Positions 43,874 to 61,586 of a stretch of 64,000 bases of DNA are shown here, in pieces. The DNA comes from Paracoccus salipaludis (lineage in GTDB: Bacteria > Pseudomonadota > Alphaproteobacteria > Rhodobacterales > Rhodobacteraceae). How positions within the stretch are numbered: the first letter of the stretch is position 1; each line of letters opens with the position of its first letter. The notes under the pieces are model-generated. The model did not search any database and had not been told where the DNA came from. It saw nothing but the letters and a program-made list of their open reading frames with translations. A program made the position numbers and the translations under genes. The DNA lies in assembly GCF_002287065.1 (NCBI RefSeq), contig NZ_NSJZ01000011.1, forward strand, positions 1 to 64,000, given 5' to 3'.

Positions 43874-43949
43874 GGGCCCATAGCTCAGTTGGTAGAGCAA
43901 CTGACTTTTAATCAGTGGGTCACAGGTTCGAATCCTGTTGGGCTCACCA
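43874..43949 (+). tRNA. tRNA-Lys (anticodon TTT)
   Basis: Complete cloverleaf: acceptor GGGCCCA/TGGGCTC (one G-U pair), anticodon stem ACTGA/TCAGT around CTTTTAA (TTT at 43907-43909), T-loop TTCGAAT, encoded CCA at 43947-43949. Its 3' end is the attachment site of the island that follows; the tRNA itself is intact. Confidence 0.98.
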
Positions 43950-43955
43950 CTGTTT
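43933..43955 (+). repeat. attL, left attachment site
   Basis: 23-bp sequence from TCCTGTTGGGCTCACCA through ACTGTTT that covers the 3' end of tRNA-Lys; identical at 61564-61586. Integrase gene ends 26 bases inside. Confidence 0.9.
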
Positions 43956-43981
43956 TCATTTTATCGTTTCCTTTCATGGGG

Positions 43982-45058
43982 TTATGCACCTGCTTTGTCC
44001 AACGGGCGAAGGTGTTGGACATTGTTGCCGGGAAGCAGCGCCAGCGCGCCGGCCGCCAGCTTCACGCGGTTTGCGGCTTGGACGTAGCGCCGCGCCTCTT
44101 GCGGGGTCTTGTGCGCGAGGAAGGCCATGATCTGAAATTCGGAAGCACCCTGATCCGCAAGACGGGTCGCACCATACTTGCGCAGGCCATGCGCGCGGCA
44201 CTCGCCCGGCAACCCGGCATCGCGGCACTGGTCGGCAAACCAGTTGCCGAAACTCTCGACCGTGTAGGGGTTGCCGTCGCGGTTCAGGATGAACGTGGCT
44301 TGGGTCGGCGGAAGCTGGCGAAGCTCGGCCACAAGCTCGGGCAGGTATTCCAGCGGTAGCTCCACGTCCTGTCCGGTCTTGATCCTGCGATACCAGATAT
44401 TGCCGCCCTTGATGTTCATGCGCCCCATCGCTCGCGCGTCCTGACGGGCGGCCCCGGTGCCGATGATGAGTTCAAGCGCCATCCGCGCATCCGTGCCGCT
44501 GGCGTGGTAGTCGCGAAATTGCGCAACCTGCTCATCAGTCCAAGTATGAAAACCGCCCGACTTGATCTTGCGGCGGTCAACCTGTTCGGTCGGGGAAACG
44601 CCGGTAAAGCCAAGCCGTTTGCGCGCATAGGTGTAGATTTCGGACAGTTCCTTGTGCAGGCGATTCGCCGCAGTCGGTCCGCCTTTCAGATCCATCAGGT
44701 GTTCGACATGGTAAGGTTGCAGATCGGACAGGCGCGCGGCCCCGATTTTTTCCCTGATCCAGTCCAGCCGCAGCCGCTTGTGATAGCGGGTTGATTCGCG
44801 CAGCTCGCAGAACGATTTGCTCGACAAGTAATCGGTAATGGTGTGGTCGAAGGTGCCGCGCGAGTGCTGCGACTTAGGCGGCTCGAACGTGCCCGTGATC
44901 GCCGCCTTGTAAGCCTCGACCATTGAGCGCGAAGCCCACGGACCGGGAAGATAGCAGTCGATCTTGCGGCCCTTGATTGTCTTGCGAAGGCGGATGCGCT
45001 TGCCGCCGCGCGGGTCGTCAACGATGGTCGCACCGGGGAAGGGATTGCGCTTGCTCAT
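43982..45058 (-). CDS. int: Tyrosine recombinase integrase of the island
   Basis: 358-residue phage-type integrase that would drive insertion at, and excision from, tRNA-Lys. N-terminal AP2/Arm-type region with KGRKIDCYLPG, SAM-like core-binding domain (about 75-165), catalytic domain with Arg in TGAARQDA, HGLRKYGATRLADQ (HxxR) and AHKTPQEARRYVQ (His and nucleophile Tyr). Start ATG overlaps the upstream small gene by 4 bases; the longer frame upstream has no support. Stop lies 26 bases from attL, the classic int-att arrangement. Confidence 0.94.
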   Translation of the reverse strand: MSKRNPFPGATIVDDPRGGKRIRLRKTIKGRKIDCYLPGPWASRSMVEAYKAAITGTFEPPKSQHSRGTFDHTITDYLSSKSFCELRESTRYHKRLRLDWIREKIGAARLSDLQPYHVEHLMDLKGGPTAANRLHKELSEIYTYARKRLGFTGVSPTEQVDRRKIKSGGFHTWTDEQVAQFRDYHASGTDARMALELIIGTGAARQDARAMGRMNIKGGNIWYRRIKTGQDVELPLEYLPELVAELRQLPPTQATFILNRDGNPYTVESFGNWFADQCRDAGLPGECRAHGLRKYGATRLADQGASEFQIMAFLAHKTPQEARRYVQAANRVKLAAGALALLPGNNVQHLRPLDKAGA

Positions 45059-45240
45059 GCCAGCCCCAGCATCTTGTCGATTTCGTTGGGGCCGCTGGAC
45101 GCCGCGCCCGCCGTGATGGTGATTCGCGTTCCGTCCGGTCGCTCGGCCGATACCGTCCAATGCTCGATGTTGGCCTCGCGCATTACTTGCGCGTAGCCTG
45201 CCAACTCGTTCTTGGGGATGGTGACGGGACGGGCGGCCAT
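45055..45240 (-). CDS. Small island protein, possible excisionase-position gene
   Basis: 61 residues (MAARPVTIPKNELAGYA... KMLGLA), coupled by ATGA to int and 3 bases after the previous gene. It looks like a small winged or beta-alpha fold common beside integrases in alphaproteobacterial prophages, but I cannot name the family. Its place suggests a recombination-directionality or regulatory role (inference). Confidence 0.75.
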   Translation of the reverse strand: MAARPVTIPKNELAGYAQVMREANIEHWTVSAERPDGTRITITAGAASSGPNEIDKMLGLA

Positions 45241-45243
45241 GCG

Positions 45244-45912
45244 TCAGCCCTCGCCCCGCAGGAACTGCCCCATCTTCTTGATGGTGCTATCAGTGAAGTA
45301 ATAGACGCGCGAAAGGTCGCCGTAGCCCTTGCGCTCGAACTCGCGCTGATACCGCTCGGCCCACGCCATGATGTCGTCGCCTTCCTGGGGACCGGCGTTG
45401 TAGTGATGTTCTTCGTTGAACTTCCCGCCAACAAAAAGGCGAATAACCGCCTGCGGCGACGGCCCGTGTAGTCTAAACTCCGCCTGATATAGCTGCGGAA
45501 TCACTCGGCCCTGAACTTCCTTTTTCGGCAATGCGTCGTAAGCGTTTTTGAACTCGCCAGCGGCCGCGCTTGCGACAAAGGCGTTCAAGGCTTGGCCAAA
45601 CGTGTGATTCTCGGGCAGAGCCTGCACAGTGGGCAGCGAGAACCCCTCCAGCCCCCACTTGCGAGCGGGGTTGCCGGAAAGGTGAGCATAGGTCCGCACC
45701 GTTTCGGCTGTCTCCCTGATGATCGCGCCGCTTGCGGCCCCGATGAGCAGGTTGGTTACGTCACCGGAATCCATCTTCGCGGCGCTTCGTCCCCGGCCGC
45801 CCTTCGCGCGCAGGCCGTTCGCGGCAAGTTCTCGGTCAATCTGCGTCAGCGTGATCTCGGGCACTCCCAAGGCGGCTGCCGCCTGCTTCACCATCTCGCC
45901 GGGAGTAGTCAT
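45244..45912 (-). CDS. Island protein with possible N-terminal DNA-binding region
   Basis: 222 residues, unrecognised. The first 60 residues (GEMVKQAAAALGVPEITLTQIDREL, then LRAKGGRGRSAAK) look like a helix-turn-helix plus basic patch seen in prophage-region proteins of Rhodobacterales; the rest is mixed and contains no known motif. GGAGG lies 6 bases before the ATG. First gene of the leftward regulator-int operon, so an island transcriptional regulator is plausible but unproven. Confidence 0.75.
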   Translation of the reverse strand: MTTPGEMVKQAAAALGVPEITLTQIDRELAANGLRAKGGRGRSAAKMDSGDVTNLLIGAASGAIIRETAETVRTYAHLSGNPARKWGLEGFSLPTVQALPENHTFGQALNAFVASAAAGEFKNAYDALPKKEVQGRVIPQLYQAEFRLHGPSPQAVIRLFVGGKFNEEHHYNAGPQEGDDIMAWAERYQREFERKGYGDLSRVYYFTDSTIKKMGQFLRGEG

Positions 45913-45938
45913 GTTGTGCCTCCGAAGCCCTCCATTGG

Positions 45939-45967
45939 TATATTCCACAAATGACGCGGCATTGCAA
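45939..45967 (-). promoter_or_regulatory. Candidate promoter of the regulator-integrase operon
   Basis: On the minus strand TTGCAA and AATATA are 17 bases apart, upstream of the 222-residue gene, in an AT-richer 188-base divergent region (45913-46100) that also serves the plus-strand gene. Confidence 0.4.
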
Positions 45968-46100
45968 CCCCATTTGCTTTTTTTCCGAAAGAAGCTGGTG
46001 GCAAGCTTGTTTCAGGCCGAAGCCGCAAGCTATCGTCCTAGAGGTCTTCGGACTCGTTCCAGTGAGCCGCACCCCTGCCAGTAACCGATGAGGCAATCCT

Positions 46101-46388
46101 ATGGCTGCAAAATCGCTCTCATACTCCACTCGGGTTTATGTCAAAAACCCCGGCGGCGCCTACGATCCTGCCCCACTGCATGAGTTTGATCTCCATGAGA
46201 TGGATCATCCGCCCGCCTTCATGCCGGGTGATACTCTCTGTTCATGGTCCCAGCTGTCAGGTGAGACTAAGGGGCGGAATCACTATTACAGGGTGATCGA
46301 GCGACTACTGCGCGTTGAGGCGAACGGCTTTGACGTGTTCATTTTGGTTGAGGAAGTCGAACCGGGCTGGACCTCCACCTTCGACTGA
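46101..46388 (+). CDS. Orphan plus-strand island gene, unknown function
   Basis: 95 residues, starting MAAKSLSYSTRVYVKN and ending in GWTSTFD; soluble, mildly acidic, with a regular composition of a real protein and less GC-rich than its surroundings. GAGG lies 7 bases before ATG. I recognise no family. It is the only native island gene on the plus strand and sits between the integration and head modules, the usual place of accessory or interference genes in phage satellites. Confidence 0.65.
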   Translation: MAAKSLSYSTRVYVKNPGGAYDPAPLHEFDLHEMDHPPAFMPGDTLCSWSQLSGETKGRNHYYRVIERLLRVEANGFDVFILVEEVEPGWTSTFD

Positions 46389-46697: not shown

Positions 46698-47780
46698 TCA
46701 GTCCTGCCAGTCCACGAATTGCAGCGCGTCTTGCAGGGTGGTGCCGTCCAGCCCGGCCTCCTTGGCCGTGGCATAGGCTTGCAGCATCGCGCCGAACGCC
46801 CGCGCCTTGCCGCCGTGATCGAAGGCTTGCATCGGCCGCACCACGTCCAGCTTGACCGGCTGCCCGAGCTTCGCCGTGGCCTCGTCCGCGACCAGCATCG
46901 CCATCGGTTGCAGGACCAGTTGCGCGAGGTGTCGTTGCGCCTCTCGGACCATCGGTCCGGTCGTGCTGCGGTTCAGCAGCCCAGGCAGGACGCCGTAGCT
47001 CATCAGGATCGCGTCTCGCGCGGCCTCCAGCGTCTCGGTGGTCATGGCCCGTTGCAGGTCAGGGGTCAGGCCCTCGGGCCGCTGGCCGAGCTGCGGGTGC
47101 ATTCCGGCTGCGACCTGTTGAGCCACGCCCTCGATGACGAGGGTGGCCCCCCTGCGGCCCCGGAAGGCGGATCGCATCGCGGCCATGTCCTCGCTGGACC
47201 CTTCGGGCAATGGCACGATCTGCGACCCCAAGGGGGCGTCCCGATACACGTCGCGCAAGGCGCCCTCGACCTCTTGCAGCAGCTCGGCCGAGAGGGACGC
47301 CCGGTGAAGGGGTGCGGTCCCGGCCCAGGGCGTCACCGCCGACGATCCGATGCGGACGTGAAGAACCTCGCCCGCAAGCACCGTCTGGGACGTGCCGCCG
47401 CCGATCTCCGACACGCTCACGCGATAGGCGCGCGGCTCGCCATGCAGGGTTTTCACGTCCCAATCGGTGACGGGCACCAGCCGGTCGCGGATCAGGAACA
47501 CCGCCTCACCCCGCAAAGCCAGTGCGCGGGCCATCATCGCCAGCGTCCGCCGGTCCAACATGTCGGTGCCCTTCACGTCCGCCAGGGTGAAGCCGCTTTC
47601 CCAGAGGAACACGCAGGATTGCACCGTCGCCGTCAGCTCGGCCACGTTGGACCGCCCCGACAGCCATTCATGACGGGCCGCGACCAGATCGGCCGTGTAG
47701 CCCATCGCCACGGCGCGGGTTTCGACCTCGTTTCGCGCGGGAACGGGGTTCCGCCGGAAAAAGCTCATCAGCCCCATCAT
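46698..47780 (-). CDS. Phage portal protein, HK97 family
   Basis: About 360 residues. Forms the dodecameric ring through which DNA enters the head. Portal-type features: N-terminal stem start MGLMSFFRR, ATVQSCVFLWESGF, GEAVFLIRDRLVPV, GEVLHVRIGSS, central LTPDLQRAMTTETLEAARDAILMSYGVLPGLL and a C-terminal clip/crown region. Slightly shorter than the usual 380-430. ATG at 47780 makes a 4-base overlap with the protease stop; neighbouring ATGs at 47789 and 47777 are alternatives. Last gene of the head operon. Confidence 0.9.
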   Translation of the reverse strand: MMGLMSFFRRNPVPARNEVETRAVAMGYTADLVAARHEWLSGRSNVAELTATVQSCVFLWESGFTLADVKGTDMLDRRTLAMMARALALRGEAVFLIRDRLVPVTDWDVKTLHGEPRAYRVSVSEIGGGTSQTVLAGEVLHVRIGSSAVTPWAGTAPLHRASLSAELLQEVEGALRDVYRDAPLGSQIVPLPEGSSEDMAAMRSAFRGRRGATLVIEGVAQQVAAGMHPQLGQRPEGLTPDLQRAMTTETLEAARDAILMSYGVLPGLLNRSTTGPMVREAQRHLAQLVLQPMAMLVADEATAKLGQPVKLDVVRPMQAFDHGGKARAFGAMLQAYATAKEAGLDGTTLQDALQFVDWQD

Positions 47781-48331
47781 GCCCTCCATCGGTTGAGCGC
47801 ATAGACGGGGACGCGAACCGGCTGGCGGTCCTGATGCGTCTCCCAGGCCCGCGCCTCGATCTGCGCTTGGCTGTAAGCAGGCCGCGTCACCGTGCTGACC
47901 TCGAACAGTTCGGCCGCCGTGATCGTCCGCAGGACGCCTGCGCCCCGTTGCTCGATCCGCTCGCCGCCACGGGGAACACGGAAGCCGGGGCTAAGCCCTT
48001 TTATCAGGCCAGCCCGATAAGCCGCCAGGAAGTCCCGCGCCCAGGTGGTGCCTTCCTCGATCTCGGCTTCCACGGTCAAGGCGTCATCGCCATCGGTCAG
48101 CCGCAGGTTGCCCGCCGACCGGGACGCCAGCGGCCGGTCGTAGCTGTGACCGGCCAGCAGGTGGATATCCTCGCCCGCCTCGATCCGGGCGGCGAAGGCG
48201 CGGGGGGCGATCCGCTCGAACCGCCCCGGCGCGATTTCCGCCTCGGCCCCATAAGGGAACGTGGCGTGAAGGCGGGTGGTCCCGCCCTCGGCTCGCAGCT
48301 CCAGGCTGCCGTTGTGACCGCCCCAGAGCAT
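47777..48331 (-). CDS. HK97-type prohead protease
   Basis: 184-residue serine protease that matures the capsid shell. Catalytic residues fit the herpes/HK97 assemblin fold: His in LLAGHSYDRPLA, Ser in IKGLSPGFRV and acidic residue in AAELFEVSTVTRPAY. Start shares a base with the capsid gene stop (TGATG). Confidence 0.92.
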   Translation of the reverse strand: MLWGGHNGSLELRAEGGTTRLHATFPYGAEAEIAPGRFERIAPRAFAARIEAGEDIHLLAGHSYDRPLASRSAGNLRLTDGDDALTVEAEIEEGTTWARDFLAAYRAGLIKGLSPGFRVPRGGERIEQRGAGVLRTITAAELFEVSTVTRPAYSQAQIEARAWETHQDRQPVRVPVYALNRWRA

Positions 48332-49581
48332 CAGGGTTCACCGATGCCCGTGAGGATCGCCAGTTGCGACCCGCGCGCCACGGCCACATCTGCCGTCATC
48401 AGCGCCGTGAGCCGCAGGGTGCCCGACTGCGCGTCCGAGTAAGGATCGCGGATCAGGTCCAGCCCGCCCCAGATGCCGACATAAAACGGGGCAATCCCGC
48501 CCGTGTTCGTCGTCAGCACCGCCGTGCCCTCGGGCAGCGTCGGGGCCAGGGCGATCTGGCCGGCGGGAACGTGCTTCACCAGCCGGTCCCACTGCGACAC
48601 GGCCGTGCCCGCGATCAGCGCGTCATCCAGGTCCGCCCAGATCGCCGGATCGAAGGCCATCCGAATGTCGCCCGGCGACTTGACCAGGTTGCCGTCCATG
48701 AAGGCCACCGCCGCCGCGCGGAACGCCGCCCAGCTTGCCGCAGCCCCCACGGCCGTCTCGGTGATGCCGTAGGTATCCGCCCCGGTGATGATGCCCAAAG
48801 GCTCGCCGTTGGCCCCGCTGCCCATCAGGATCGCGCGGTCCAGCTCGGTCTGCACCGCCGCGTTCATGTCGCGCCGGATCGCCGCTTCCAGACCGTCGCC
48901 CGCCTGCTTGAGCGCCTTGCGGGTGATCCGCATGTGAACGCCAAGGGTGTGATCCGGCTCCAGCATCCGCTCCGCGAAGTCGAACGGCTGCGGACCCGGC
49001 ACGTTGGCCCCTTCGGTCGGTGCCCATCCGGCAATCGCGCCCGCCGTGGCGACGGGAATGGCGACCGCCCCGGACGTGATGTTGATGACCTCGCCGCCGA
49101 GGCGGGACGCCACGCTGGCCGGGAAGATGCGGTCGATCAGCGGCCGGATCGTGACGGGCTTCGGCACGTCCGCGCTCGTGGTGGTGCCCGCGACCAGCTC
49201 GCGCTGTTCCAGCGCCGCCAGCGGAATGGGATAGCCGCGATAGCCGCCATGGCTCCGCATCTCGGACACGATCTCGGCCGTCTGGCCCGACAGGCTGCGG
49301 CCTTCCTCCAGCGCGGCGACGATCTGGCGCATCTCGAAGCCTGCGACCAGATCATCCCACTGCCGCCCGGCGCGGGTGTCCAGGTCGGCCCCGGCCTCGC
49401 GCCGCTCGGTGTCCTCGGCGGTCAGGGCGGCCCTGTAGCGGGTTTCGTTGGTGCGATACTCGCCGTCGAGGGCTTCCATCTGGCGGGTTTCATCCTCGCT
49501 CGGATCGGGCTTGCCGACCAGGGCCGAGAGTTGCTGGCGGATTTCGCTTTGCCGCCGGGCGATCTTCACAGAATCAAGCAT
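48331..49581 (-). CDS. Major capsid protein, HK97 fold
   Basis: 416 residues. An N-terminal coiled-coil scaffolding (delta) region (about 1-100, Glu/Arg/Ala-rich) is followed by the HK97 capsid fold starting near PKPVTIRPLIDRIFP, with FDFAERMLEPDHTLGVHMRITRKALKQAG (E-loop/P-domain region) and ANGEPLGIITGADT. The delta domain would be removed by the adjacent protease, so the island looks able to build its own mature shell. Confidence 0.94.
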   Translation of the reverse strand: MLDSVKIARRQSEIRQQLSALVGKPDPSEDETRQMEALDGEYRTNETRYRAALTAEDTERREAGADLDTRAGRQWDDLVAGFEMRQIVAALEEGRSLSGQTAEIVSEMRSHGGYRGYPIPLAALEQRELVAGTTTSADVPKPVTIRPLIDRIFPASVASRLGGEVINITSGAVAIPVATAGAIAGWAPTEGANVPGPQPFDFAERMLEPDHTLGVHMRITRKALKQAGDGLEAAIRRDMNAAVQTELDRAILMGSGANGEPLGIITGADTYGITETAVGAAASWAAFRAAAVAFMDGNLVKSPGDIRMAFDPAIWADLDDALIAGTAVSQWDRLVKHVPAGQIALAPTLPEGTAVLTTNTGGIAPFYVGIWGGLDLIRDPYSDAQSGTLRLTALMTADVAVARGSQLAILTGIGEP

Positions 49582-49921
49582 TGTGTCCTCGTTTGCTCGA
49601 TAGGGGATTGGTGTCGGCCGTCAGGTCGTTGACAGCCTTCCGCCAGCCGTGGCGGTCATACGAAGGCGGGGGGTTCCCGACCTCGATGCGAGTCTTTGCC
49701 GAGTGACAGCTAGGACAGCGCATGGCGCAATTTTCCGGGGCATAGGCCAGATCGGGCCGCAGCCGGACGGGCACGACATGATCGCACTCCAGGCGGCCCC
49801 GGCTCTTGCCGCAGTCCACGCATTTGAAGCCGTCGCGCTCCAGCACAGCCATGCGGACGGATTTCCAGCGCGGGCCGCGCGTGATGCGCTTGGAGTGGCG
49901 GGTGTAGTCTCTCAGGCCCAT
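49574..49921 (-). CDS. HNH endonuclease
   Basis: 115 residues with two CxxC pairs (CVDCG and CPSCH) and the HNH core LECDHVVPV...NCAMRCPSCHSAKTR. HNH proteins beside terminase genes assist DNA cleavage in cos-type packaging in HK97-like phages. Overlaps the terminase by 10 bases and the capsid gene by 8. Confidence 0.93.
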   Translation of the reverse strand: MGLRDYTRHSKRITRGPRWKSVRMAVLERDGFKCVDCGKSRGRLECDHVVPVRLRPDLAYAPENCAMRCPSCHSAKTRIEVGNPPPSYDRHGWRKAVNDLTADTNPLSSKRGHNA

Positions 49922-51663
49922 GCCACCCTCGCTTTCCGCGTGGGGGCCGCCAGCATCCGCTGACCCTGCGCCACCGCCAGCACCGTTGCCGCCGCCGCGT
50001 CGATGCGGCCGAGGCTCCGGGCCTTCGCCAGCTTGGCGTTGCCAGCCGGATCATTGAGAACGACGGCGTCCGAGAACGCCGACCGCAGCAGCAGCGAAGG
50101 AACGCCCTTCACCTCGCCGTCGAACAGCGCCCTGCGGAACCGTTCAACGTCCTCGCTGCCGTCTTTCCAGCCGAAGCCGCGATAGACGAACGGGACACGC
50201 AGGCCCGCCTTGTCCATCGCTTCGGTAAACTCGGCATGGCGGAAGCGGTCGCCCACGATGCAGGCCGGGGTGATGCCGTCGAGCTTGCGGACGATCTCGG
50301 CCAGCCAGGGACCGGGGGGCACCGTGGCCTCGCCCATCACCGTCAGCTCGCCGCGTTCCTGCATCTGCACATAGCGGTCGGACACGCCGTCAGCCGCGCC
50401 GCGATCCGCAAGGCCGGGGTTGCCGGGGAAGGTGCCCAGAGCCTCCAGGCGGCCCGTCTGCGGCCAGTAGAACGCCGCTGCGGACATGGACCGCGAACCG
50501 CCCAAGTCCACGCCCAGGATGCACGGTCCCTCACGCGGGGGCAGGTCGTCGGGGTCCACCTCGGATGCAAGCCATTCGTCCACCGTCACAAGGACGGACC
50601 TATCTTCGGTCGAGACCCGCTCGTTCCGGTTCAGGTTGCGGAAGCTCGACAGGGCAGAGCCGCCTCGAGCGATAGCCCGCCGCGCCTGCGCCACCAGCCA
50701 TTCCGGGGATGCGCCGATGCCCTCGACCGCGCCGGGGTTGGCTTCCAGCAGCGACGGCAGATCATCGGCAGGCAGCCCGAACGCAGGCCGGTGTTCCTGC
50801 ACGTAGGTTCCGGGGGGCGGATCATCGAGCCAACGGCTGAATGTGTTCGCATCATCAGGCGCGCTAGTTGACAAGATCAGCGCCCGGCCGTCACGTTTAC
50901 CCAGACCAGAGAGGATGGCGTTTTCGAGGTTGTCGCCCTTTTCCCGTTCCCAAGCCGCTCTTTCATCCATCAGGGCCAGCGTGGGGGCGCCGCCCAGGAT
51001 CGACTTGCCATCCGCAGGGATAACCCGGATCAGCCCGCCGCCATTGCCGGGATACTCGACTTCCAGCTTGGACCCGCGCCGGATGATGAACTGCTCGCGC
51101 TCCTCCTCGGGCAACCCGTCGATGAAGCCGGTGACGAAGTTGAAGGCGGTGCGCGCCTGATCGCGGTTCCGGGCGGCGAACAGGATTTCCCGCTTGGGCT
51201 GGCTGTCCCACACACCCATGAGGCTGCCCAGGGCGAGGCCCGCCGAAGTGGCGGTCTTAGAGTTGCCCCTTCCGATGCTTAAGCAGGCGACCATCACGCC
51301 GTCAGCCAGGGCGCCGCGCACGAACCGGCGCTGGAACTCGGCCAGTTGCAGAGGTTCGCCCGCCTTCGGACCCTCTGGAACGGTCAGCGTCTCAAGGAAG
51401 GCAATCGCCTGATCGGCCAGATCCTCCCCGGATTTTTTCGGGAGAGGGAAAGGAACAGGTGGACGCCGGTATCCTTCTACCGCCGAAGTCCCGGCATTGG
51501 GACCAGACAGCGCCGCAGCGACTCCCACAGCCGCCTTGCGCCGCGCCGCGTGTCCCTGACGCCGCGCTTGCTTGTCGGCCTCCAGAGCCGCCACAGAGCC
51601 GCTTGGAAGCCCATCCTTGCGGGGCCTGCCGCGTGGCTTGCCGGTGGGCTTGTATCCGCTCAC
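49912..51663 (-). CDS. Terminase large subunit (Terminase_1 type)
   Basis: 583-residue packaging motor and nuclease. ATPase: Walker A-like SIGRGNSKTATSA near 132, Walker B TLALMDERAAW near 230. Nuclease: ILGVDLGGSRSMSAAAFYW near 383 with metal-binding Asp, plus IVGDRF. A 65-residue N-terminal extension contains GKPRGRPRKDG, an AT-hook-like DNA-binding motif normally found in small terminase subunits; no separate terS gene is visible. Coupled by ATGA to the connector gene. Confidence 0.93.
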   Translation of the reverse strand: MSGYKPTGKPRGRPRKDGLPSGSVAALEADKQARRQGHAARRKAAVGVAAALSGPNAGTSAVEGYRRPPVPFPLPKKSGEDLADQAIAFLETLTVPEGPKAGEPLQLAEFQRRFVRGALADGVMVACLSIGRGNSKTATSAGLALGSLMGVWDSQPKREILFAARNRDQARTAFNFVTGFIDGLPEEEREQFIIRRGSKLEVEYPGNGGGLIRVIPADGKSILGGAPTLALMDERAAWEREKGDNLENAILSGLGKRDGRALILSTSAPDDANTFSRWLDDPPPGTYVQEHRPAFGLPADDLPSLLEANPGAVEGIGASPEWLVAQARRAIARGGSALSSFRNLNRNERVSTEDRSVLVTVDEWLASEVDPDDLPPREGPCILGVDLGGSRSMSAAAFYWPQTGRLEALGTFPGNPGLADRGAADGVSDRYVQMQERGELTVMGEATVPPGPWLAEIVRKLDGITPACIVGDRFRHAEFTEAMDKAGLRVPFVYRGFGWKDGSEDVERFRRALFDGEVKGVPSLLLRSAFSDAVVLNDPAGNAKLAKARSLGRIDAAAATVLAVAQGQRMLAAPTRKARVAWA

Positions 51664-53530: not shown

Positions 53531-54414
53531 CACGCGGCCCTCCCGATGAACTTCATCAGCGTGTCGCGTTCGGCGGCCTCGATTTCTTTCAGCCGCTCCA
53601 GTTCATCGGCGGGCAGGTGCCGCTCGATAGCCCAGCGGACCAGATCGCGCAGATCGTCGGGCGGGATCGCGTCCAGCTCGGCCGCGAACTCGTAGGGCCA
53701 CCGCTGATCGGCCTTGGTGTTGCGCTTGGCCGGGCGGGTCGGCAGGCGCATTTTCGTCACCTGATCGTAGGTCAGGCCCAGGTGGTAGAAGTCCACGGGG
53801 ACGCCGTATTCCGCGCCGAACCGCTCGACCTTCTCTTGCAGCGAAGCGGATGCGTCCTGCCCGCTGCGGTCGAAGTCATAGAGCGCATAGATCACCAGCG
53901 TCTTGCCGGTGCCCCTCATGCTCTCGACGGCCCCATGCGCGAACGTCTCGGACGTGAAGCCGCCGGTCGGCATCAGCGGCACGTCGAACTCGGACGTGAC
54001 CGGGTAGATCACGCCAGCCAGCGCCGACTTCTCCAACCAGATTTCGACATCCACCGTGGACTCGGCCCAGAGCGATTTCCGATAGAACCGGGCGGTGTCG
54101 CGCAGGGCATCCTCCCAGCCGTCGAAGGTCTGGGGCTTCCGCATGTAGCGGGTCGCGTCCGCAATGTAGTGATAGGGCATCCGCCCTTCGCGCCGCAGGG
54201 TCAGCACCTGCGCCTGCACCTTGTTGTAGCCATCTTCGGTTTTCTCAATGCCGGGCAGGCCCGCGACCGTGGCCTGATAGAAGAGCTGGCGGACGGTGAC
54301 GGGACCGTGCGCCTCGGCATAGTCGATCAGGAACCGCGCCCTGATCTCCATTTCGGCCGAGGTGGCGCGACGACGCGGTGCGGGGTTTATCAGGCTGGCC
54401 GGATAAACCCACAT
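53530..54414 (-). CDS. Toprim-domain (Spo11/TopoVI-A-like) protein, 5' end at the IS
   Basis: Up to 294 residues. N-terminal winged-helix part with RRRATSAEMEIR and GPVTVRQLFYQATVAG, then a Toprim fold: Glu in VEIWLEKSALAG (about 170) and DxD in ALYDFDRSGQDA (about 232). Related proteins in phages and plasmids are thought to act in DNA replication or recombination; no partner TopoVI-B is present. The only upstream ATG (54414) lies inside the terminal repeat of the IS, so the native start may be lost; MEIRAR at 54351 is the internal alternative. First gene of the head operon. Confidence 0.85.
   Translation of the reverse strand: MWVYPASLINPAPRRRATSAEMEIRARFLIDYAEAHGPVTVRQLFYQATVAGLPGIEKTEDGYNKVQAQVLTLRREGRMPYHYIADATRYMRKPQTFDGWEDALRDTARFYRKSLWAESTVDVEIWLEKSALAGVIYPVTSEFDVPLMPTGGFTSETFAHGAVESMRGTGKTLVIYALYDFDRSGQDASASLQEKVERFGAEYGVPVDFYHLGLTYDQVTKMRLPTRPAKRNTKADQRWPYEFAAELDAIPPDDLRDLVRWAIERHLPADELERLKEIEAAERDTLMKFIGRAA
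54383..54410. promoter_or_regulatory. Perfect dyad beside the IS left end
   Basis: GGGTTTATC and GATAAACCC, 9-bp perfect arms, 10-base partly symmetric spacer. Lies in the first codons of the Toprim frame and touches the IS. Could be an old operator of the island operon. Confidence 0.4.
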
Positions 54415-56078
54415 TCTCCAAGTAAGTCGCTGATTTCGCTGTCGTAATCGTGATATTTCGCATATAAATCATGGCGTTGACGGCTGCGAGGGGCGCGTTT
54501 CATGGATCACCTGGAGGGTGCGGGCTTGGCGCGGGGAGATCGGGTTGATTTCGACCGCCGTGTGCGTCTGGAGTTCCGTGGTGCGCAGATCAGTTCAGAC
54601 GGTGGCCTGCTGGTGATGCGCGAGCTTGATGACGTGCTCGGCCTGTCCAATCTGGCGTCGGAGGCGCTGCGAGACAGCCGCACCGGGAAGAACACGCTCC
54701 ATCGGCTTGACGGATTGTTCCGGCAATCGGTGTTCGGACGACTGGCCGGATACGAGGATGTGAACGATGCCGACCGCTTGGCCCTCGATCCCGTGATGCG
54801 TCAGGTCGTTGGCGGCAGGGCCGTCGAGGCGCAAGCTGCTTCGGCATCGCAGATGGGACGGTTCGAGACCGAGACGCTGGCTCTGGCCGCGAACCGGGCG
54901 GCGCTGGCCGATCTGAACGGCCAATGGATCGACCGGTTTCATGACCGCAACGGGTTGAAATACATCGTGCTGGACATGGACAGCTCGGTCAGCCCCACCC
55001 ACGGCGATCAGGAAGGTGCTGCCTGGAACGGGCATTTCGACTGCACCTGCTATCACCCCATCTTCTTGTTCAACCAGTTTGGCATGCTGGAGCGCTGCGC
55101 CCTGCGTAACGGCAATGTCCACAGCGCCGATGGCTGGCGGGATGTCCTTGATCCCGTCATTGCCCGATATGCTGGCCGCGACCTTGGTGGACGCTTCTTC
55201 CGGGCCGACGCTGCCTACGCGATCCCCGCGATCTATATGCGGCTGGAAGAAGCCAGGTTCTTCTACGCCATCCGTCTGCCCGCCAACGCCGTCTTGCGCG
55301 AGAAGATCGCGCATCGGCTGACACGGCCCGTGGGACGGCCTTCGCTGACCAAGGTCAAACGGTTCTTCGAGGACTTCGAGTATCAGGCGGCGTCCTGGGA
55401 CAAGCCGCGCCGCGTCATCGCCAAGATCGAATGGCATCCGGGCGAGCTGTTCCCCAAAGTCGGCTTCATCGTCACCAACCTGCCGATGGAGCCAGACTGG
55501 GTGGTGAGGTTCTACAACCAGCGCGGCACCGCAGAGCAGCACATCAAGGAAGGCAAATATGCCTTTCGCTGGACGCGGCTGTCATGCCGGAAGTTCCGGC
55601 ACAACGAGGTGCGGCTGCAACTGCACGCGCTGGCCTACAACCTGGCAACCTTCCTGCGCTGCATCGAACTGCCCGAGGCCATGGCGGACTGGTCGTTGAC
55701 CAGCCTGCAACTCAAGCTGATCAAGATCGGCGCCCGCGTCGTCCGCCACGCCCGCGCCATTACCTTCCAGTTGGCCGAGGTCGCCGTCACCGGCCCGATG
55801 GTGCGGGCCGTCCTTGCCGCCATCCGCCGTCTTCGAACGCCTCCGTCATGCGCATGACCACGATCCATGCCCAAGCTGAACGAAAGAGGCAGGACAGGTC
55901 CGTCTGCCGCGCGGAAAAGCGGCTCTGCCGGGCCAGAATGCTGCGGGTTCGAGGCTTGATCCACCCGACTTCGGCCGTTTGCGCGACGACAGACACCGCT
56001 CGGGGCGAAAAACGCTTGCCCAGCGAGCAAAATCAGGCGATCTTGAAGTCAAGCGGCAGGCCACTTGGGGAATGTCGG
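54408..56078. mobile_element. IS1380-family insertion sequence
   Basis: About 1.67 kb. Imperfect terminal inverted repeats: CCCACATTCTCCAAGT at the left, and CCGACATTCCCCAAGTGG read inward from the right (two mismatches in the first 16). Ends begin with CC as in the family. One transposase gene. The 4-base flanks (TAAA and TTCA) do not match, so there is no target duplication. Confidence 0.82.
54502..55857 (+). CDS. IS1380-family transposase
   Basis: 451 residues, full length. DDE-type: ISSDGGLLVMREL at the start, first Asp in IVLDMDSSVSPTHGDQEG, YHPIFLFNQFG, LRNGNVHSADGW, second Asp in FFRADAAYAIP, and Glu region in YNQRGTAEQHIKEGK. ATG at MDHLEGAG. The gene has no frameshift or stop, so the copy may still be active. 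Confidence 0.95.
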   Translation: MDHLEGAGLARGDRVDFDRRVRLEFRGAQISSDGGLLVMRELDDVLGLSNLASEALRDSRTGKNTLHRLDGLFRQSVFGRLAGYEDVNDADRLALDPVMRQVVGGRAVEAQAASASQMGRFETETLALAANRAALADLNGQWIDRFHDRNGLKYIVLDMDSSVSPTHGDQEGAAWNGHFDCTCYHPIFLFNQFGMLERCALRNGNVHSADGWRDVLDPVIARYAGRDLGGRFFRADAAYAIPAIYMRLEEARFFYAIRLPANAVLREKIAHRLTRPVGRPSLTKVKRFFEDFEYQAASWDKPRRVIAKIEWHPGELFPKVGFIVTNLPMEPDWVVRFYNQRGTAEQHIKEGKYAFRWTRLSCRKFRHNEVRLQLHALAYNLATFLRCIELPEAMADWSLTSLQLKLIKIGARVVRHARAITFQLAEVAVTGPMVRAVLAAIRRLRTPPSCA

Positions 56079-56544
56079 TTCACATATCTCCTTCGATGCG
56101 ATTGCGCGGGAAGCAGGACTGAGCAAAGGCGGTGTTCTTTACAACTTTCCGACCAAGCGCGACCTCATGGCGGCGCTGCTGAGGGACATGCTCTCCGAGC
56201 ATGAGTCCCTAGAAGCGCGCCTGCCGCAGGACTCGCGACAACGCACCCTTCGTCGCCACCTTTGCTCGCTCCGCACCCTCGACGCAGCGGCTTCCGACGT
56301 TTCCATGGCGATCCTAGCCGTCGCGGCGGCCGAACCGGACCTTCTTGACCCGCTGCGTGACGCGCTTGAGGTCGATCTTTCCTGCATCGAGGCGGAAATG
56401 AAGGACACAAGCCTAGGGCGTCTGATCTTCTTCGCGCTGCAAGGACTACGTTTCCATTCGCTCTTGGCACTTCCAGATGGTGGGCCATCGGTTCGCAACG
56501 AGCTTGCACAGAAAATTGAGGAGATGATCGACAATGCCCATTGA
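56076..56544 (+). pseudogene. TetR-family regulator truncated at its 5' end by the IS
   Basis: Frame open from the IS border to the stop (about 155 codons). It enters directly in the helix-turn-helix (HISFDAIAREAGLSKGGVLYNF), so roughly 25 N-terminal residues, including helix 1, are missing. The C-terminal ligand-binding part (to DNAH) is intact. No proper start codon exists: the first in-frame candidates are a TTG inside the IS end or ATG in the LMAALL region. It overlaps the MFP gene by 11 bases, so it was the local repressor of the pump. Confidence 0.85.
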
Positions 56545-57670
56545 AGGCAAAGCGAGAGCGCTGCTTGGACTTGGTGTCGCAGGCTGCGTCTGTGCGCTCC
56601 TGTTTGCCGTGCCGAGTTGGCAGATCCATGCGCAGGATCGGGAAGCGGCGAGCAGCAGTGACGTTGCCGGCCCTCCGTCAGGTGCTGAAGCGTCTGCGTT
56701 GCCCATGCCCGTCGAGATCACTCAGGCTGTCGCGTATTCCGAGGCCAGAACCCGATCCTTTGCCGGGACAGTAGAGGCGCTGAAAACGGTGGATCTCGCC
56801 TTCCAGGTTTCCGGGCAGCTTGTCGAGTTTCCAGTCATTGCCGGTGATCGGGTGACGACCGGCGACTTGATAGGACAGCTCGATAAGGCCGATTTCCAGC
56901 TTGCGCTGGACCGCGCGCGTGCCTCGTACGATCTGGCGCGCAGCGAGTTTACCCGCGCCTCCGCCCTGTCGGATCGCGGGGTCGCCACCGACGCGCAGCT
57001 CGACGCGGTGCGCGCGCAGCTTGCCCAGGCCGAGACGGCGCTGCGCGAGGCGGAACGGCGTCTGACCCAGACCGAGGTGCGCGCCCCCTTCGATGCCATC
57101 GTTGCCCGCACCTATGTTGAAGCCTATGCCAACGTGACGCCCGCCCAGCCGGTGGTGCGCCTTCAGGACGTCTCCGAACTCTTGATCCGCATTTCGCTGC
57201 CCGAGGATCTGGCCGCCGTGGCCCGCGTCCAGCCCGATCTGTTTTCGGTGACGGCCACCTTTCCGGCCGCGCCGGGCTATCGTCCGACGCTGGAGCCGCG
57301 CAGTTTCGCGGCCGAGGCCAATTCCTCGACCCGGACCTTCGATGTCGAGTTCAGGATCGCAGGCGATATCGACCCGCGCATCCTGCCGGGCATGACGGCG
57401 AACGTTGCGGTGGGCGAAATCGAAAGCAGCCGTCCTTCGCAGGCGGTGACGCTTCCCGTCTCGGCAGTGGACACGACCAGCCGGGCCAATCCGACGGTCT
57501 GGATCTACACTGCCGAGGACAGCACGGTCTCGCGCCGCGATGTCCGGCTGGGCCTGCCGCGCGACAACTGGATCGTCGTGCTGGAGGGGCTGGAGCCCGG
57601 CGAAACGGTGGTCGCAACCGGCTGGTGGCGCCTGCGCGACGGGGCACGAGTTGCGGTCGTCGGCCTTTGA
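56534..57670 (+). CDS. RND efflux periplasmic adaptor (membrane fusion protein)
   Basis: 378 residues. N-terminal signal/anchor (about 8-28), then lipoyl/barrel-sandwich half GTVEALKTVDLAFQVSGQLVEF, an alpha-hairpin (about 120-185, Ala/Arg/Glu-rich), second lipoyl half with TQTEVRAPFDAIVART, beta-barrel and membrane-proximal domain. Links the inner-membrane RND pump to an outer-membrane channel, which is not encoded here. Directly upstream of the pump. Confidence 0.94.
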   Translation: MPIEGKARALLGLGVAGCVCALLFAVPSWQIHAQDREAASSSDVAGPPSGAEASALPMPVEITQAVAYSEARTRSFAGTVEALKTVDLAFQVSGQLVEFPVIAGDRVTTGDLIGQLDKADFQLALDRARASYDLARSEFTRASALSDRGVATDAQLDAVRAQLAQAETALREAERRLTQTEVRAPFDAIVARTYVEAYANVTPAQPVVRLQDVSELLIRISLPEDLAAVARVQPDLFSVTATFPAAPGYRPTLEPRSFAAEANSSTRTFDVEFRIAGDIDPRILPGMTANVAVGEIESSRPSQAVTLPVSAVDTTSRANPTVWIYTAEDSTVSRRDVRLGLPRDNWIVVLEGLEPGETVVATGWWRLRDGARVAVVGL

Positions 57671-57724
57671 CGGCAGGCGCTTTGACCGCCGTCCAACACA
57701 CTGCGGAACGGGAGAATGACCGCC

Positions 57725-60700
57725 ATGGCATCTGAGACGGTTGATGCAGCACGCATGAGCATCGCGCGCGGCGCCATTCGCCGCCCCGTCGCCGTCTGGC
57801 TTGCGATCCTGTTCTGCCTGCTTGGCGGGCTCTGGGGGCTTGCCAATGTCGGCCGTCTCGAGGACCCGAGCTTCACGCTCAAGACCGCGCTTGTCTTCGT
57901 GCCCTATCCCGGCGCGACCGCCGAGGAGGTAGAGGAAGAAGTCGCCGATGTCATCGAAACCGCACTTCAGCAGATGCGGCAGCTTGATCGCGTGCAGTCG
58001 AAATCCATGCCCGGTATGGCGCAGATCACGGTCGAGATCGACATGCGCTACGGGCCCGACGAGATCCCGCAGATCTGGGACGAGATGCGCCGGCGCATCG
58101 GTGACGTGCGCGGCGAACTGCCCGCCGGCGCCCGCGCTCCGATCGTCAACGATGATTTCGGCGATGTTTACGGGCTGTTCTATGCCGTGACCACCCAGGG
58201 CCTGACGCCGACCGAACAACGCGATCTTGCCACGCTTTTGCGGCGCGGGCTGGTGACGGTGGACGGGGTGGCCAAGGTCGAGGTCCAGGGCCTGATCGAG
58301 GAAGAGATCACCATCGCGATCGACCCGGCCCGCTTGGCCGGTCTGGGCCTGCCGCCCGACCAGTTGATCGGCGTGATCGCCAGCGAGAACCAGGTTTTCG
58401 CCAATGGCGAGGTCACCGCCGACACCGCGCGCATCGCGCTATCCGTGCCGCAAGGCTATGCCACGGTTGAAGGGATCGAGACGCTGCGCCTCGGCGCAGC
58501 TGGCGAGGTCGGGCAGGCCACGGTTTTCGATATTGCCGCGGTCAGCCGCCACGAGGTGGAGCAACCCTCCCAGATCATTCGCCAGAATGGTGTCCGGGCC
58601 TTCACCATCGGCATTTCCGCACTGACCGACCGCAACGTCGTGGCTGTCGGCCAGGCGGTCGAGGCGCGCCTCGCCGAACTCGGCGAGCAGCTTCCCGAAG
58701 GAACAGAACTGGTTCCGATCTACGAACAGACCAAGGTCGTCGATGAAGCGGTGTCGAGTTTCCTTGTTGGTCTCTTGCAGTCGGTGGTTATCGTGGTCGG
58801 CGCGCTGATGCTTACGATGGGCTGGCGCGCGGGCCTTGTGGTGGGCGCCACTCTGGGCCTGACGGTGCTGGCCACCGTCTTCTTCATGGCGGTCCTCGGG
58901 ATCGAGATGGAGCGTATCAGCCTGGGAGCGCTGATCATCGCCATGGGGATGCTGGTGGACAACGCCATCGTCATCGCCGAGGGCATGGTGATCGGCATGG
59001 CGCGCGGCCAGACGCCCGAGGACGCTGCCGCCGAGACCGAGAGCGCGACGAGCATTCCGCTGCTTGGCGCCACGGTCATCGGCATCATGGCCTTTTCGGG
59101 TATCGGCCTGTCGCCGGATGCGACGGGCGAGTTCCTTTTCTCGCTCTTTGCCGTCATCGGGATCTCGCTGTTGCTCAGCTGGGTTCTGGCAGTCACGGTC
59201 ACGCCCTACCTGGGCAAGCTTCTGCTGAAGGCCCCGCGAGACATGTCGGCCGATCCCTATCGGGGGCTCATGTATCGGGCCTACCGCGGGATCCTGCACG
59301 GCTCGCTGCGCGCCCGCTGGCTGGTGATGCTGGTGATCGTGGGGATCACAGTCGCCTCAATCATGGCCTTCGGTCAGGTCAAGCAGGCCTTCTTCCCTGC
59401 CTCGAACACGCCGCTGTTCTACGTCCAGTTCCAGATGCCGCAGGGCACTGACATCCACACCACCGACCGCGCCATGCAGCGGCTGGAGCAGATTGTTATG
59501 GCCGAGCCCGATGTGGTGGCCGTGACGACGCTGGTCGGGCGCGGGGCCAGCCGCTTCATGCTGACCTACAACCCCGAACAGGCCGACCCCAGCTATGGCC
59601 AGCTGATCGTGCGAACGCGTGACGCCCTGGTGATCCCGGAACTGGCGGCCCGGCTGAACCGCGAGCTGGCGATGGAGTTCCCCCACGCGCTGGTGCGCAC
59701 CGAGGAACTGGTCTTCGGCCCGCCGGCGGGGGCTGCGGTGGCGGTGCGCTTCTCGGGGCCCGATCCGCTGATCCTGCGCCAGCTGGCCGACGAGGCGCTG
59801 AAGATCTACGAGGCGGCCGGCACGATTATCGAGCCGCGCACCGACTGGCGCCAGCGCGAATTGCGCGTCGTGCCGATCGTCGATGAATCGCGCATGCGCC
59901 TGACCGGCGCCACCCGCCAGGCGATCGCCGACACGGTGCAGTTCGGCACCTCGGGCCTGCGCGTGGCCGCCCTGCGCGAAGGCGACGCCGAGGTGCCGAT
60001 CTACCTGCGCCTGCCCGAACCCCAGCGCGACGGCATCGACCGCGTGCAGGACCTGCCGGTGTGGTCGCCGGGGGCCGGTGCCTATGTGCCGATGTCCAAC
60101 ATGGTGACCCGGATGGAGGTCGAGCTTGCCGAGGCGCTGATCCACCGGCGCGACCGCGAGCGCACGATCACCGCCCAGGGCGGCAAGCGGCCCGATCTGA
60201 CGGCCGACCAGGCCTTCCGCAGCGTGCGGGCGCAGATCGAGGCGATGGAACTGCCCCCCGGCTACCGGATGGAATGGGGCGGCGAGTTCGAAAGCTCGCA
60301 GCAGGCTCAAGAATCGCTAGGCAAGCAGTTGCCGCTGGGCTTCCTCGTGATGCTGACGATCTCGATCCTGATGTTCAACAAGGTGCGCCAGCCGCTGATC
60401 CTGTGGCTTGTAGTGCCGATGTCGGTCACAGGGATGGTGCTGGGACTGCTTGCCAGTGGGATGCCGTTCACCTTCACGGCTCTGCTGGGCTTCCTGTCGC
60501 TGTCGGGGATGCTGATGAAGAACGCCATCGTTCTGGTCGAGGAGATCGACCTCAGGCGCGCGTCCGGGGCGGCGGATTACGACGCCGTGGTGGATGGCTC
60601 GGTCAGCCGTCTGCGCCCGGTGGTGCTGGCGGCGGGGACGTCGATCTTCGGCATGCTGCCGCTGCTGCCGGACGCCTTCTTCGCCTCGATGGCGGTCACG

Positions 60701-60832
60701 ATCATGGGGGGCCTTGCCTTCGCATCGGTTCTTACGCTGCTGGCAGTTCCAGTGCTCTATGCGATCTTGTTCCGCATCCGGCGACCCAACGCCGCTTCGG
60801 CACGGGAAATCCCCTCCGGTGCCACGACATGA
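57725..60832 (+). CDS. RND efflux transporter, HAE1/AcrB-like inner-membrane pump
   Basis: About 1035 residues, full length. Proton-driven exporter with 12 membrane spans and two large periplasmic loops. Proton-relay acidic residues lie in MGMLVDNAIVIAEGMVIG (TM4); the second half has GFLSLSGMLMKNAIVLVEEID. ATG at 57725 has GGAG 10 bases upstream; ATG at 57716 is only one base from the same site. Substrate unknown. With its adaptor it is a cargo module inside the island. Confidence 0.95.
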   Translation: MASETVDAARMSIARGAIRRPVAVWLAILFCLLGGLWGLANVGRLEDPSFTLKTALVFVPYPGATAEEVEEEVADVIETALQQMRQLDRVQSKSMPGMAQITVEIDMRYGPDEIPQIWDEMRRRIGDVRGELPAGARAPIVNDDFGDVYGLFYAVTTQGLTPTEQRDLATLLRRGLVTVDGVAKVEVQGLIEEEITIAIDPARLAGLGLPPDQLIGVIASENQVFANGEVTADTARIALSVPQGYATVEGIETLRLGAAGEVGQATVFDIAAVSRHEVEQPSQIIRQNGVRAFTIGISALTDRNVVAVGQAVEARLAELGEQLPEGTELVPIYEQTKVVDEAVSSFLVGLLQSVVIVVGALMLTMGWRAGLVVGATLGLTVLATVFFMAVLGIEMERISLGALIIAMGMLVDNAIVIAEGMVIGMARGQTPEDAAAETESATSIPLLGATVIGIMAFSGIGLSPDATGEFLFSLFAVIGISLLLSWVLAVTVTPYLGKLLLKAPRDMSADPYRGLMYRAYRGILHGSLRARWLVMLVIVGITVASIMAFGQVKQAFFPASNTPLFYVQFQMPQGTDIHTTDRAMQRLEQIVMAEPDVVAVTTLVGRGASRFMLTYNPEQADPSYGQLIVRTRDALVIPELAARLNRELAMEFPHALVRTEELVFGPPAGAAVAVRFSGPDPLILRQLADEALKIYEAAGTIIEPRTDWRQRELRVVPIVDESRMRLTGATRQAIADTVQFGTSGLRVAALREGDAEVPIYLRLPEPQRDGIDRVQDLPVWSPGAGAYVPMSNMVTRMEVELAEALIHRRDRERTITAQGGKRPDLTADQAFRSVRAQIEAMELPPGYRMEWGGEFESSQQAQESLGKQLPLGFLVMLTISILMFNKVRQPLILWLVVPMSVTGMVLGLLASGMPFTFTALLGFLSLSGMLMKNAIVLVEEIDLRRASGAADYDAVVDGSVSRLRPVVLAAGTSIFGMLPLLPDAFFASMAVTIMGGLAFASVLTLLAVPVLYAILFRIRRPNAASAREIPSGATT

Positions 60833-61113
60833 CCGCTTCGAAGCTGCCTTGCGGGGCGGCTTCGCCTGTCCGCATGATTGCGGACTTGTCGGACATCGAA
60901 GGGCCGCAACCTGACGCAAATCGGGGCAGGAGGACCGGATCGGCGATGACGGAGCTTTCGTCCCGGACGATCTGATGCCGTCAAACGTATTGCCGAGACC
61001 CGGTCGCGGGACGCATCACCGGCAAAGTCCCACGGAGTCGAGGCGGCAGGGCGGCGGGAAAGGTTCGGCGCAGGGGGCGGGCCGGGCATCGGGCGAAATC
61101 CCATAAAGCGCGT
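60833..61113. other. Junction region between efflux cargo and the right end of the island
   Basis: Starts with an imperfect stem (CGAAGCTGCC / GGCGGCTTCG) that could end the pump transcript, though without a T-run. The rest has no gene except the short remnant frame at 61016-61117. The cargo-island junction must lie here but is not marked by any repeat I can see. Confidence 0.5.
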
Positions 61114-61117
61114 TCAT
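61016..61117 (-). pseudogene. Short 5' remnant of an island gene
   Basis: 33-codon frame starting MNALYGISPDARP, whose ATG overlaps the stop of the upstream gene by 4 bases, the spacing used throughout this island. It soon becomes Pro/Cys-rich and stops, as expected for a gene cut off by the cargo insertion. Inference. Confidence 0.35.
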
Positions 61118-61515
61118 GCCGCAGCCCTCCCCTGCACATAACCGAGGAACGCGGCCTGATCGGCCGGGGTCATCCGCTGATAGCTGGCGAGGCAGTAGGC
61201 TTTCAGCTCCACGCGAGACGCCATGTCGGCCCAGAACCCGGCCTCCTCCATCACGCCGCAGAGGAACGGCACCTGCGGCCAGCCGGGGCGCAGTTCCTCC
61301 AGCAGACGCTCCAGGAAGGGAACGCGGTCGTCCGAATCACAGGCTGCGACTGCACAGGCCAGGGCGCTTGCAGTCCGCAGGCGGTTCAGAGTATGATCGT
61401 GGGTGAAAGCACTGCTATGCAGATCAGCCCCGGTTGCGCCCGCCAGCGCGCCGGGGTTTTCGTTTTTGCTGTTGGACAAAGCGGAATGTTCCGCAATGTT
61501 TTCAATATCCCCCAT
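61114..61515 (-). CDS. Right-end island protein, phage type, unknown function
   Basis: 133 residues. The C-terminal half (VPFLERLLEELRPGWPQVPF, then WADMASRVELKAYCLASYQRMTPADQAAFLGYVQGRA) is a compact helical module that I associate with small prophage proteins of Rhodobacterales; no function known. Starts at ATG 61515, about 50 bases inside attR, and reads leftward into the island, so it was probably first in the original leftward gene series. Confidence 0.75.
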   Translation of the reverse strand: MGDIENIAEHSALSNSKNENPGALAGATGADLHSSAFTHDHTLNRLRTASALACAVAACDSDDRVPFLERLLEELRPGWPQVPFLCGVMEEAGFWADMASRVELKAYCLASYQRMTPADQAAFLGYVQGRAAA

Positions 61516-61563
61516 TCGGGCGGGTGGACATTCTAGCGGTTTGATATAACAGGACTGTTCACG

Positions 61564-61586
61564 TCCTGTTGGGCTCACCACTGTTT
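61564..61586 (+). repeat. attR, right attachment site
   Basis: Exact copy of the 23 bp at 43933-43955, including the last 17 bases of tRNA-Lys. Upstream sequence differs from the tRNA. On its island side ACAGGAC and GTCCTGT (61549-61569) form a 7-bp inverted repeat with a 7-base spacer. Confidence 0.9.

Follow-up and report, generated by a model that had tools for sequence, protein, structure and literature searches.

Capsid-forming phage-inducible chromosomal islands (cf-PICIs) are described as widely distributed across Bacteria, which weighs against novelty, and their definition includes a small terminase subunit (TerS), according to the sections of PMC10690885 used here. The excerpts of PMC10803314 drawn on give an average size of 14 kb and name Gammaproteobacteria and Firmicutes as the main hosts, with no Alphaproteobacteria among them; three capsid clades are mentioned in PMC11389934. 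The present analysis concerns a window of 64,000 nucleotides from Paracoccus salipaludis (contig NZ_NSJZ01000011.1, positions 1 to 64,000), in which an island at 43933-61586 extends from the 3' end of a tRNA-Lys gene to the second copy of a perfect 23-bp direct repeat. An earlier note, made from the sequence alone, had read this island as a satellite of the cf-PICI type. Of the features that mark cf-PICIs, it has its own capsid, head protease, portal, head-tail connector, large terminase subunit (TerL) and HNH endonuclease, and no tail genes were detected; it is very probably an integrated phage satellite that forms its own head, packages its own DNA and takes its tail from a helper. The features that carry this reading are as follows.

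43874..43949, plus strand: tRNA-Lys(ttt), the attachment target (ARAGORN)
43933..43955: left attachment site (attL), 23-bp exact repeat, mostly within the tRNA 3' end
43982..45160, minus strand: tyrosine integrase (PF00589, E 4.7e-11; phrog_1, E 4.1e-35); start uncertain, alternative upper end 45058
46698..47789, minus strand: portal (PF04860, E 4.7e-11)
47777..48331, minus strand: prohead protease S78 (PF04586, E 2.6e-24)
48331..49581, minus strand: HK97-type major capsid protein (PF05065, E 3.2e-15)
49574..49921, minus strand: HNH endonuclease (PF01844, E 9.2e-9)
49912..51663, minus strand: TerL (PF03354; phrog_9, E 5.2e-54)
51493..51505, minus strand: TGGTCCCAATGCC, candidate cos/packaging site within the 5' part of terL (family conservation)
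51660..52178, minus strand: head-tail adaptor, gp6-like, of the Rhodobacter gene transfer agent (RcGTA) type (phrog_442, E 5.4e-24)
52169..53533, minus strand: AAA_25 replication ATPase (PF13481, E 3.7e-40)
53530..54414, minus strand: topoisomerase/Toprim-like protein (phrog_6247, E 1.7e-41); start region replaced by an insertion
61564..61586: right attachment site (attR), 23-bp exact repeat

What the earlier note had described was borne out: the integrase lies beside attL, an exact-repeat scan recovered the perfect att repeats, and Pfam and PHROG searches recognised the whole head module together with the two replication-type genes. As transcribed on the minus strand, the order is a small gene termed c7, the topoisomerase-like gene, AAA_25, the gp6-like adaptor, TerL, HNH, capsid, protease and portal, followed on the same strand by two open reading frames (ORFs) of unknown role and the integrase; one 95-amino-acid ORF is on the plus strand. 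None of the window ORFs scanned against Pfam and PHROG matched a tail, baseplate, holin or endolysin family, as had been claimed. The head frames are all open, as the note had stated; the overlap that it attributed to them holds for most, not for all.

The host, predicted to be Paracoccus-like, is a Paracoccus, and P. chinensis scored as the same genus. A 400-base query joining the two island flanks matches P. chinensis in one piece with 90% identity, so that the tRNA-Lys gene is uninterrupted there, an empty site of the kind that the note had proposed to look for; in the other listed relatives the match is limited to the tRNA side or part of it. P. chinensis itself carries the closest genome-contig relative of the island (L001), which is located at tRNA-Arg; the genome with the empty site, G707, was recognised as P. 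chinensis because it shares its coordinates with L001.

For comparison we used the island at 1680329-1694760 of E. coli EDL933, which we take to be the cf-PICI EcCIEDL933. It resembles the present island in having an integrase, a replication block, a capsid, an S78-type protease, a portal, head-closure/adaptor genes, HNH, TerL and a tail-less stretch. Its order, capsid-protease-portal-closure-adaptor-HNH-TerS-TerL, shares the capsid-protease-portal succession, and the arrangement is thus less unlike described examples than the earlier note, which did not recognise it, had supposed; what does differ is that TerL stands before the capsid gene in the family described here, whereas TerS-TerL stand at the end in EDL933, and that TerS is present there and was not found among the window ORFs scanned. 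Sequence identity is 27% for the full-length protease, 24% over 202 residues for TerL and 27% over 165 residues for the portal, while the capsids could not be aligned (one E. coli member compared). At about 10.6 kb, the family is also smaller than the 14 kb average given in the consulted part of PMC10803314.

Relatives of the island and their layout

Of 295 genomes sampled from the host family, Rhodobacteraceae, 30 contain a capsid relative with 50% identity or more (own genome and partial matches included), and 42 give a capsid match at E 0.001. At the latter threshold, 40 of 125 genomes of the host genus match, and several of them have two or three copies; in a sample of the class, 9 of 385 genomes match, with a strong match outside the family in only one. 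The protein search gave 2,575 matches among 7,997 scored candidates. In phage records, which the earlier note had suggested searching, a capsid match at E 1e-5 occurs in 8 of 50,697, the best with 27.7% identity, so that no close capsid was found, and TerL has 142 matches, the best 40 of which all have 30% identity or less. In IMG/VR, there are at least 534 relatives among 600 stretches, of which 80 were kept (longest contig 18.5 kb).

Both ends were found by a direct-repeat scan in 28 of 43 relatives, which span 9,662-12,114 bp (mean 10,582, standard deviation 580) with no tail genes detected; the repeat pairs were picked by hand from the scan and about ten of them are short (15-19 bp). Among the genes that they target are tRNA-Lys, Arg, Phe, Cys, Asn, Glu, Ser and Thr, with differing integrase clusters; no tRNA was called at the repeat of L042, L048, L049, L058 or L072. 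The longest bounded island, L042, appears to hold IS66. Of the 107 loci in which all four genes are present, 106 keep the order TerL-capsid-protease-portal, and the remaining one, L162, is a tandem pair. Head-only operons without detected tail genes recur, as the note had thought worth looking for. The case that it had named as counting against it, an operon running on into tail and lysis genes in close relatives, was sought and not found in the 28 of 43 relatives with both ends located.

The islands have 119 accessory ORFs, and the 67 of at least 95 amino acids were scanned. No tail shaft or tube, tape measure, baseplate, fibre, holin or endolysin/lysis family is present in the best 25 of 27 Pfam and 25 of 67 PHROG family rows of this pooled scan; those rows hold regulators, replication initiators, replication proteins, primases, IS66 and other transposases, and neck proteins. 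For 20 island proteins (16 from the scanned accessory set and four from clusters treated as core), the full PHROG tables list no families other than replication, integrase, excisionase and unnamed ones, and for some nothing at all, and an island of about 10 kb leaves little room for a tail module. An ordinary tailed prophage was considered and rejected, as tail and lysis modules between the att sites were not found among the scanned ORFs of the window and of the island's relatives.

These data bear most directly on the proposal that the island is a decayed prophage, its tail and lysis genes deleted and its head genes left as relics. That the head genes are of ordinary HK97 type, and that other incomplete-looking head modules lie at contig ends of the host genome, would suit such a history. 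However, a layout of like size without detected tail genes recurs in 28 repeat-bounded islands with different tRNAs and integrase clusters, the gene order is almost invariant, no phage record with this head was found, and the capsids among the matches listed for the host-family genomes have no internal stop (genus member G694, whose capsid does have one, is an exception). The recurring 10-kb islands largely refute decay, which we consider very unlikely.

Several loci show further arrangements. In L109, L131 and L156 an element begins behind the integrase gene of another, and L162 holds two TerL-capsid sets, all of which point to tandem satellites. L072, L073 and L175 form a sister group in which tail genes were likewise not detected; L072 and L073 are distant relatives (capsids 26-28% identical to that of the window), are repeat-bounded islands of about 10.4 kb and are counted among the 28.

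Head-tail adaptors and the probable source of the tail

Two results on the adaptors are new to this analysis. The adaptor family profile matches the RcGTA adaptor Rcc01688 at E 2e-19, and on this profile evidence the head-tail adaptors of the family and the RcGTA adaptor are related. The adaptors also fall into two classes which never co-occur, and the portal tree requires a single change of class, versus 11 on the capsid tree (24.9 in shuffles on the portal tree). Portal and adaptor class are inherited together. Of 106 distinct rows, 93 have exactly one adaptor gene and the other 13, without one, are mostly short contigs; a head-closure protein was also seen in 40 of 108 loci. The tails are probably borrowed from other phages.

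Two loci are of separate interest here. L004 and the window have capsids with 88% identity and differ in adaptor class, with portals at 62%, an apparent capsid exchange between classes. In L001 (7725-8010), the adaptor is 94 amino acids long in an open frame and does not contain the middle of the 170-amino-acid version of the window, which brings it near the size of small gp6 adaptors.

Three IMG/VR contigs close as circles of about 9.4-10.1 kb: L113 (10,114 bp, exact 144-bp terminal repeat), L184 (10,166 bp, exact 56-bp terminal repeat) and L102 (9,549 bp, exact 122-bp terminal repeat starting at base 2). Gene clustering found no integrase in any of them. L113 and L102 have winged-helix proteins; the one common to L113 and L184, which come from different IMG datasets by name, is 97% identical between them and weakly resembles plasmid RepL (E 0.0011, below Pfam's cut-off). 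The circles may be plasmid-like members of the family. As described in the consulted part of PMC10690885, the Streptomyces satellites MulchRoom and MiniFlayer likewise encode capsid and packaging genes, and one of them has lost its integration module, as the circles seemingly have; they differ in their actinobacterial hosts, direct terminal repeats and TerS.

Such circles, and the fact that a helper was not found, would fit a complete small virus or plasmid-virus whose tail-less head particle enters by an unknown route. Yet nearly nine-tenths of the distinct rows have a single adaptor gene, head-closure proteins are frequent, and co-evolution of adaptor class with portal is best explained by an attached tail; a tail-less virus is in our judgement highly improbable.

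A gene transfer agent was rejected for the island itself, as it has an integrase and no tail gene was found among the window ORFs scanned; RcGTA differs from it in these two respects and in the candidate signal for site-specific packaging that the island has. A bolder version of the satellite interpretation holds that these are head-autonomous satellites with interchangeable portal-adaptor tail sockets, some docking onto the tails of the host's gene transfer agent and some living as circular plasmids; taken as a whole, we regard this version as very unlikely.

Other head modules in the host genome were also noted. L181 (G000:C177) and L182 (G000:C112), at contig ends of the host genome, are very similar and of classical order (TerL-portal-protease-capsid-adaptor-closure), the L181 module being followed by what seem to be host genes, without tails. 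L183 (G000:C1:453500-473400) has a portal match; the other names given there, an integrase-like ORF, neck-like genes, a terminase, an apparent protease-capsid fusion and an 843-amino-acid ORF that is perhaps a tape-measure protein, are tentative and were assigned by eye. It is a possible helper or remnant.

A candidate packaging site and the weight of the evidence

Within the 64 kb of the window, TGGTCCCAATGCC is the sole match at up to one mismatch (0.06 expected; 6 of 100 shuffles had one). With no selection applied, 45 of the 107 upstream stretches of TerL, each 300 bases long, contain the 9-mer GGTCCCAAT; for three other genes the most frequent upstream 9-mer reached 9 of 47, 7 of 30 and 6 of 29. 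TGGTCCCAATGCCCC is matched with up to three mismatches in 86 of 103 loci, 211-619 bases before the TerL 'GRG' codons, where by our own arithmetic chance would place it in about one locus in 103. In 25 of 79 distinct motif flanks there is no open terL frame, so that coding alone does not account for the signal. Conservation is 1.6-2.0 bits in the 13 motif bases; outside them it is for the most part under 0.5 bits 5' of the motif and declines more gradually 3' of it. It was computed on motif-selected rows, and this selection itself inflates the value inside the motif.

An IMG/VR scan with a 14-base version of the motif alone yielded 73 further loci from the best 80 of 120 stretches, six of them on contigs already in the set. 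TerL was matched in 48 of the 73, and in 46 it is the family TerL (at least 54% identity); in all 46 the motif is on the TerL strand, -127 to +769 bases from the aligned start. The others comprise two loci with a distant TerL (30%) on the opposite strand and 25 without TerL, and these 27 may be chance matches. A conserved DNA signal near the TerL start is thereby shown, and is new to this analysis; it is a candidate cos site.

As to TerS, the small gene c9 that precedes TerL in many relatives has no match to two TerS proteins; the HNH protein matches one PHROG named TerS, with the alignment over its HNH domain.

A number of points weigh against a satellite. TerS, which described cf-PICIs have, was not found among the scanned window ORFs, and a limited search of the host draft genome identified no complete tailed prophage, with no helper known. 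The direct-repeat scan gave no end repeats in 15 of the 43 relatives, and the motif was not found within three mismatches in 17 of 103 loci. The tail-gene negative is drawn from the best family rows of the pooled scan, which took in ORFs of at least 95 amino acids and, in L056, just the quarter of the island that the gene finder reached. Since IMG/VR trims proviruses, its short contigs alone prove little. On balance we regard a recurrent head-only satellite family of Rhodobacteraceae as real, and as working like a cf-PICI; we have not filed it as a proven member because TerS was not found and induction by a helper is an inference.

In such a satellite, an active helper would lead the element to excise by its own integrase, whose specificity for the tRNA site is evident from the att repeats and the empty site, and to replicate by its own AAA and topoisomerase-like proteins. 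TerL with the HNH nuclease would cut concatemers at TGGTCCCAATGCC; the DNA would fill a presumably small capsid made from the capsid, protease and portal that the island encodes; and portal and adaptor would accept the helper's tail, which their co-inheritance supports.

The efflux insert, neighbouring genes and implications

By comparison with L001, the island has been interrupted by a unit that carries an insertion sequence (IS) and efflux genes of the resistance-nodulation-division (RND) type. The features of this insert and the remaining small ORFs are listed here.

45055..45240, minus strand: 61-amino-acid ORF; no Pfam or PHROG family match; cluster adjoins the integrase in 16 of 16 loci
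45244..45948, minus strand: ORF of up to 234 amino acids; no match
46101..46388, plus strand: 95-amino-acid ORF; no Pfam match
54404..54407: left 4-bp target duplication, TAAA (comparison with L001)
54408..61103, plus strand: 6,696-bp IS-driven insertion (IS, truncated tetR, hlyD, acrB), absent from L001
54408..56082, plus strand: ISPme1-family IS (IS1380)
56065..56544, plus strand: TetR regulator, N-terminus cut at the IS edge (PF00440 from position 18, PF17937)
56534..57670, plus strand: RND membrane-fusion protein, HlyD type (Pfam)
57716..60832, plus strand: RND permease, AcrB type (PF00873, E 1.4e-147)
61104..61107: right 4-bp target duplication, TAAA (comparison with L001)
61114..61515, minus strand: c7 ORF; its cluster occurs in 43 of the compared loci; all-helical structure predicted for a relative

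Over its first 1,675 bases the insert shares 99.9% identity with a plasmid copy that is annotated as belonging to the ISPme1 family; its right end is weakly like its left end, and its permease gene shows about 75% identity with pump genes of Rhodobacterales plasmids. As only one transposase copy was found in the host draft genome, one-ended transposition by a single IS is the simplest reading of its origin. ISPme1 transposable modules are known from Paracoccus; the insert is like them in having one ISPme1-family copy with adjoining genes and a target duplication, and unlike them in its efflux cargo and its landing site within a satellite. Without the insert, the backbone is about 10.95 kb, in line with the 11 kb that the earlier note had estimated; with it, the island is 1.67 times the family mean. 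The cargo-bearing copy may no longer fit its own capsid; with this length, and with the start of its topoisomerase-like gene replaced, it may have become immobile.

The efflux operon, and an adaptor related to that of RcGTA, could also suggest a gene-transfer-agent-like or head-cargo island that the host has domesticated and retains for its efflux genes. The efflux unit, however, is IS-borne and absent from the closest relative, neither its transposase nor its efflux genes turned up within the other islands of the comparison, and the island has its own integrase, with a patchy distribution of the family over many tRNA sites; domestication is extremely unlikely.

Among the neighbouring genes, c7 is an island gene beyond the insert and beside attR, an addition to the earlier gene list; it adjoins the topoisomerase-like gene in L001 and is separated from it by the insert in the window. 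The AAA_25 protein is presumably RepA-like, and the topoisomerase-like protein has no Pfam match. From their positions, the 61-amino-acid ORF may be an excisionase or regulator and the ORF at 45244..45948 a regulator. No match to an AlpA-type regulator was found in the window, where the integrase is present; in relatives, c21 matches a phrog_66 excisionase/regulator (E 2.6e-5) and c19 does so weakly (E 0.016).

The satellites described here form a coherent alphaproteobacterial lineage, recurrent in Rhodobacteraceae genomes and IMG/VR contigs and with no close capsid in phage records, and the cargo of the P. salipaludis copy shows that an efflux operon can be loaded onto a satellite by an IS. 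The family offers three handles for testing. One is the candidate signal for packaging, another the naturally occurring series of portal-adaptor pairs, which should predict which tails fit, and the third a packaging unit of about 10.6 kb, which the cargo-bearing copy exceeds. Should docking onto gene-transfer-agent tails prove true, a particle controlled by the host would have become a vehicle for satellites.

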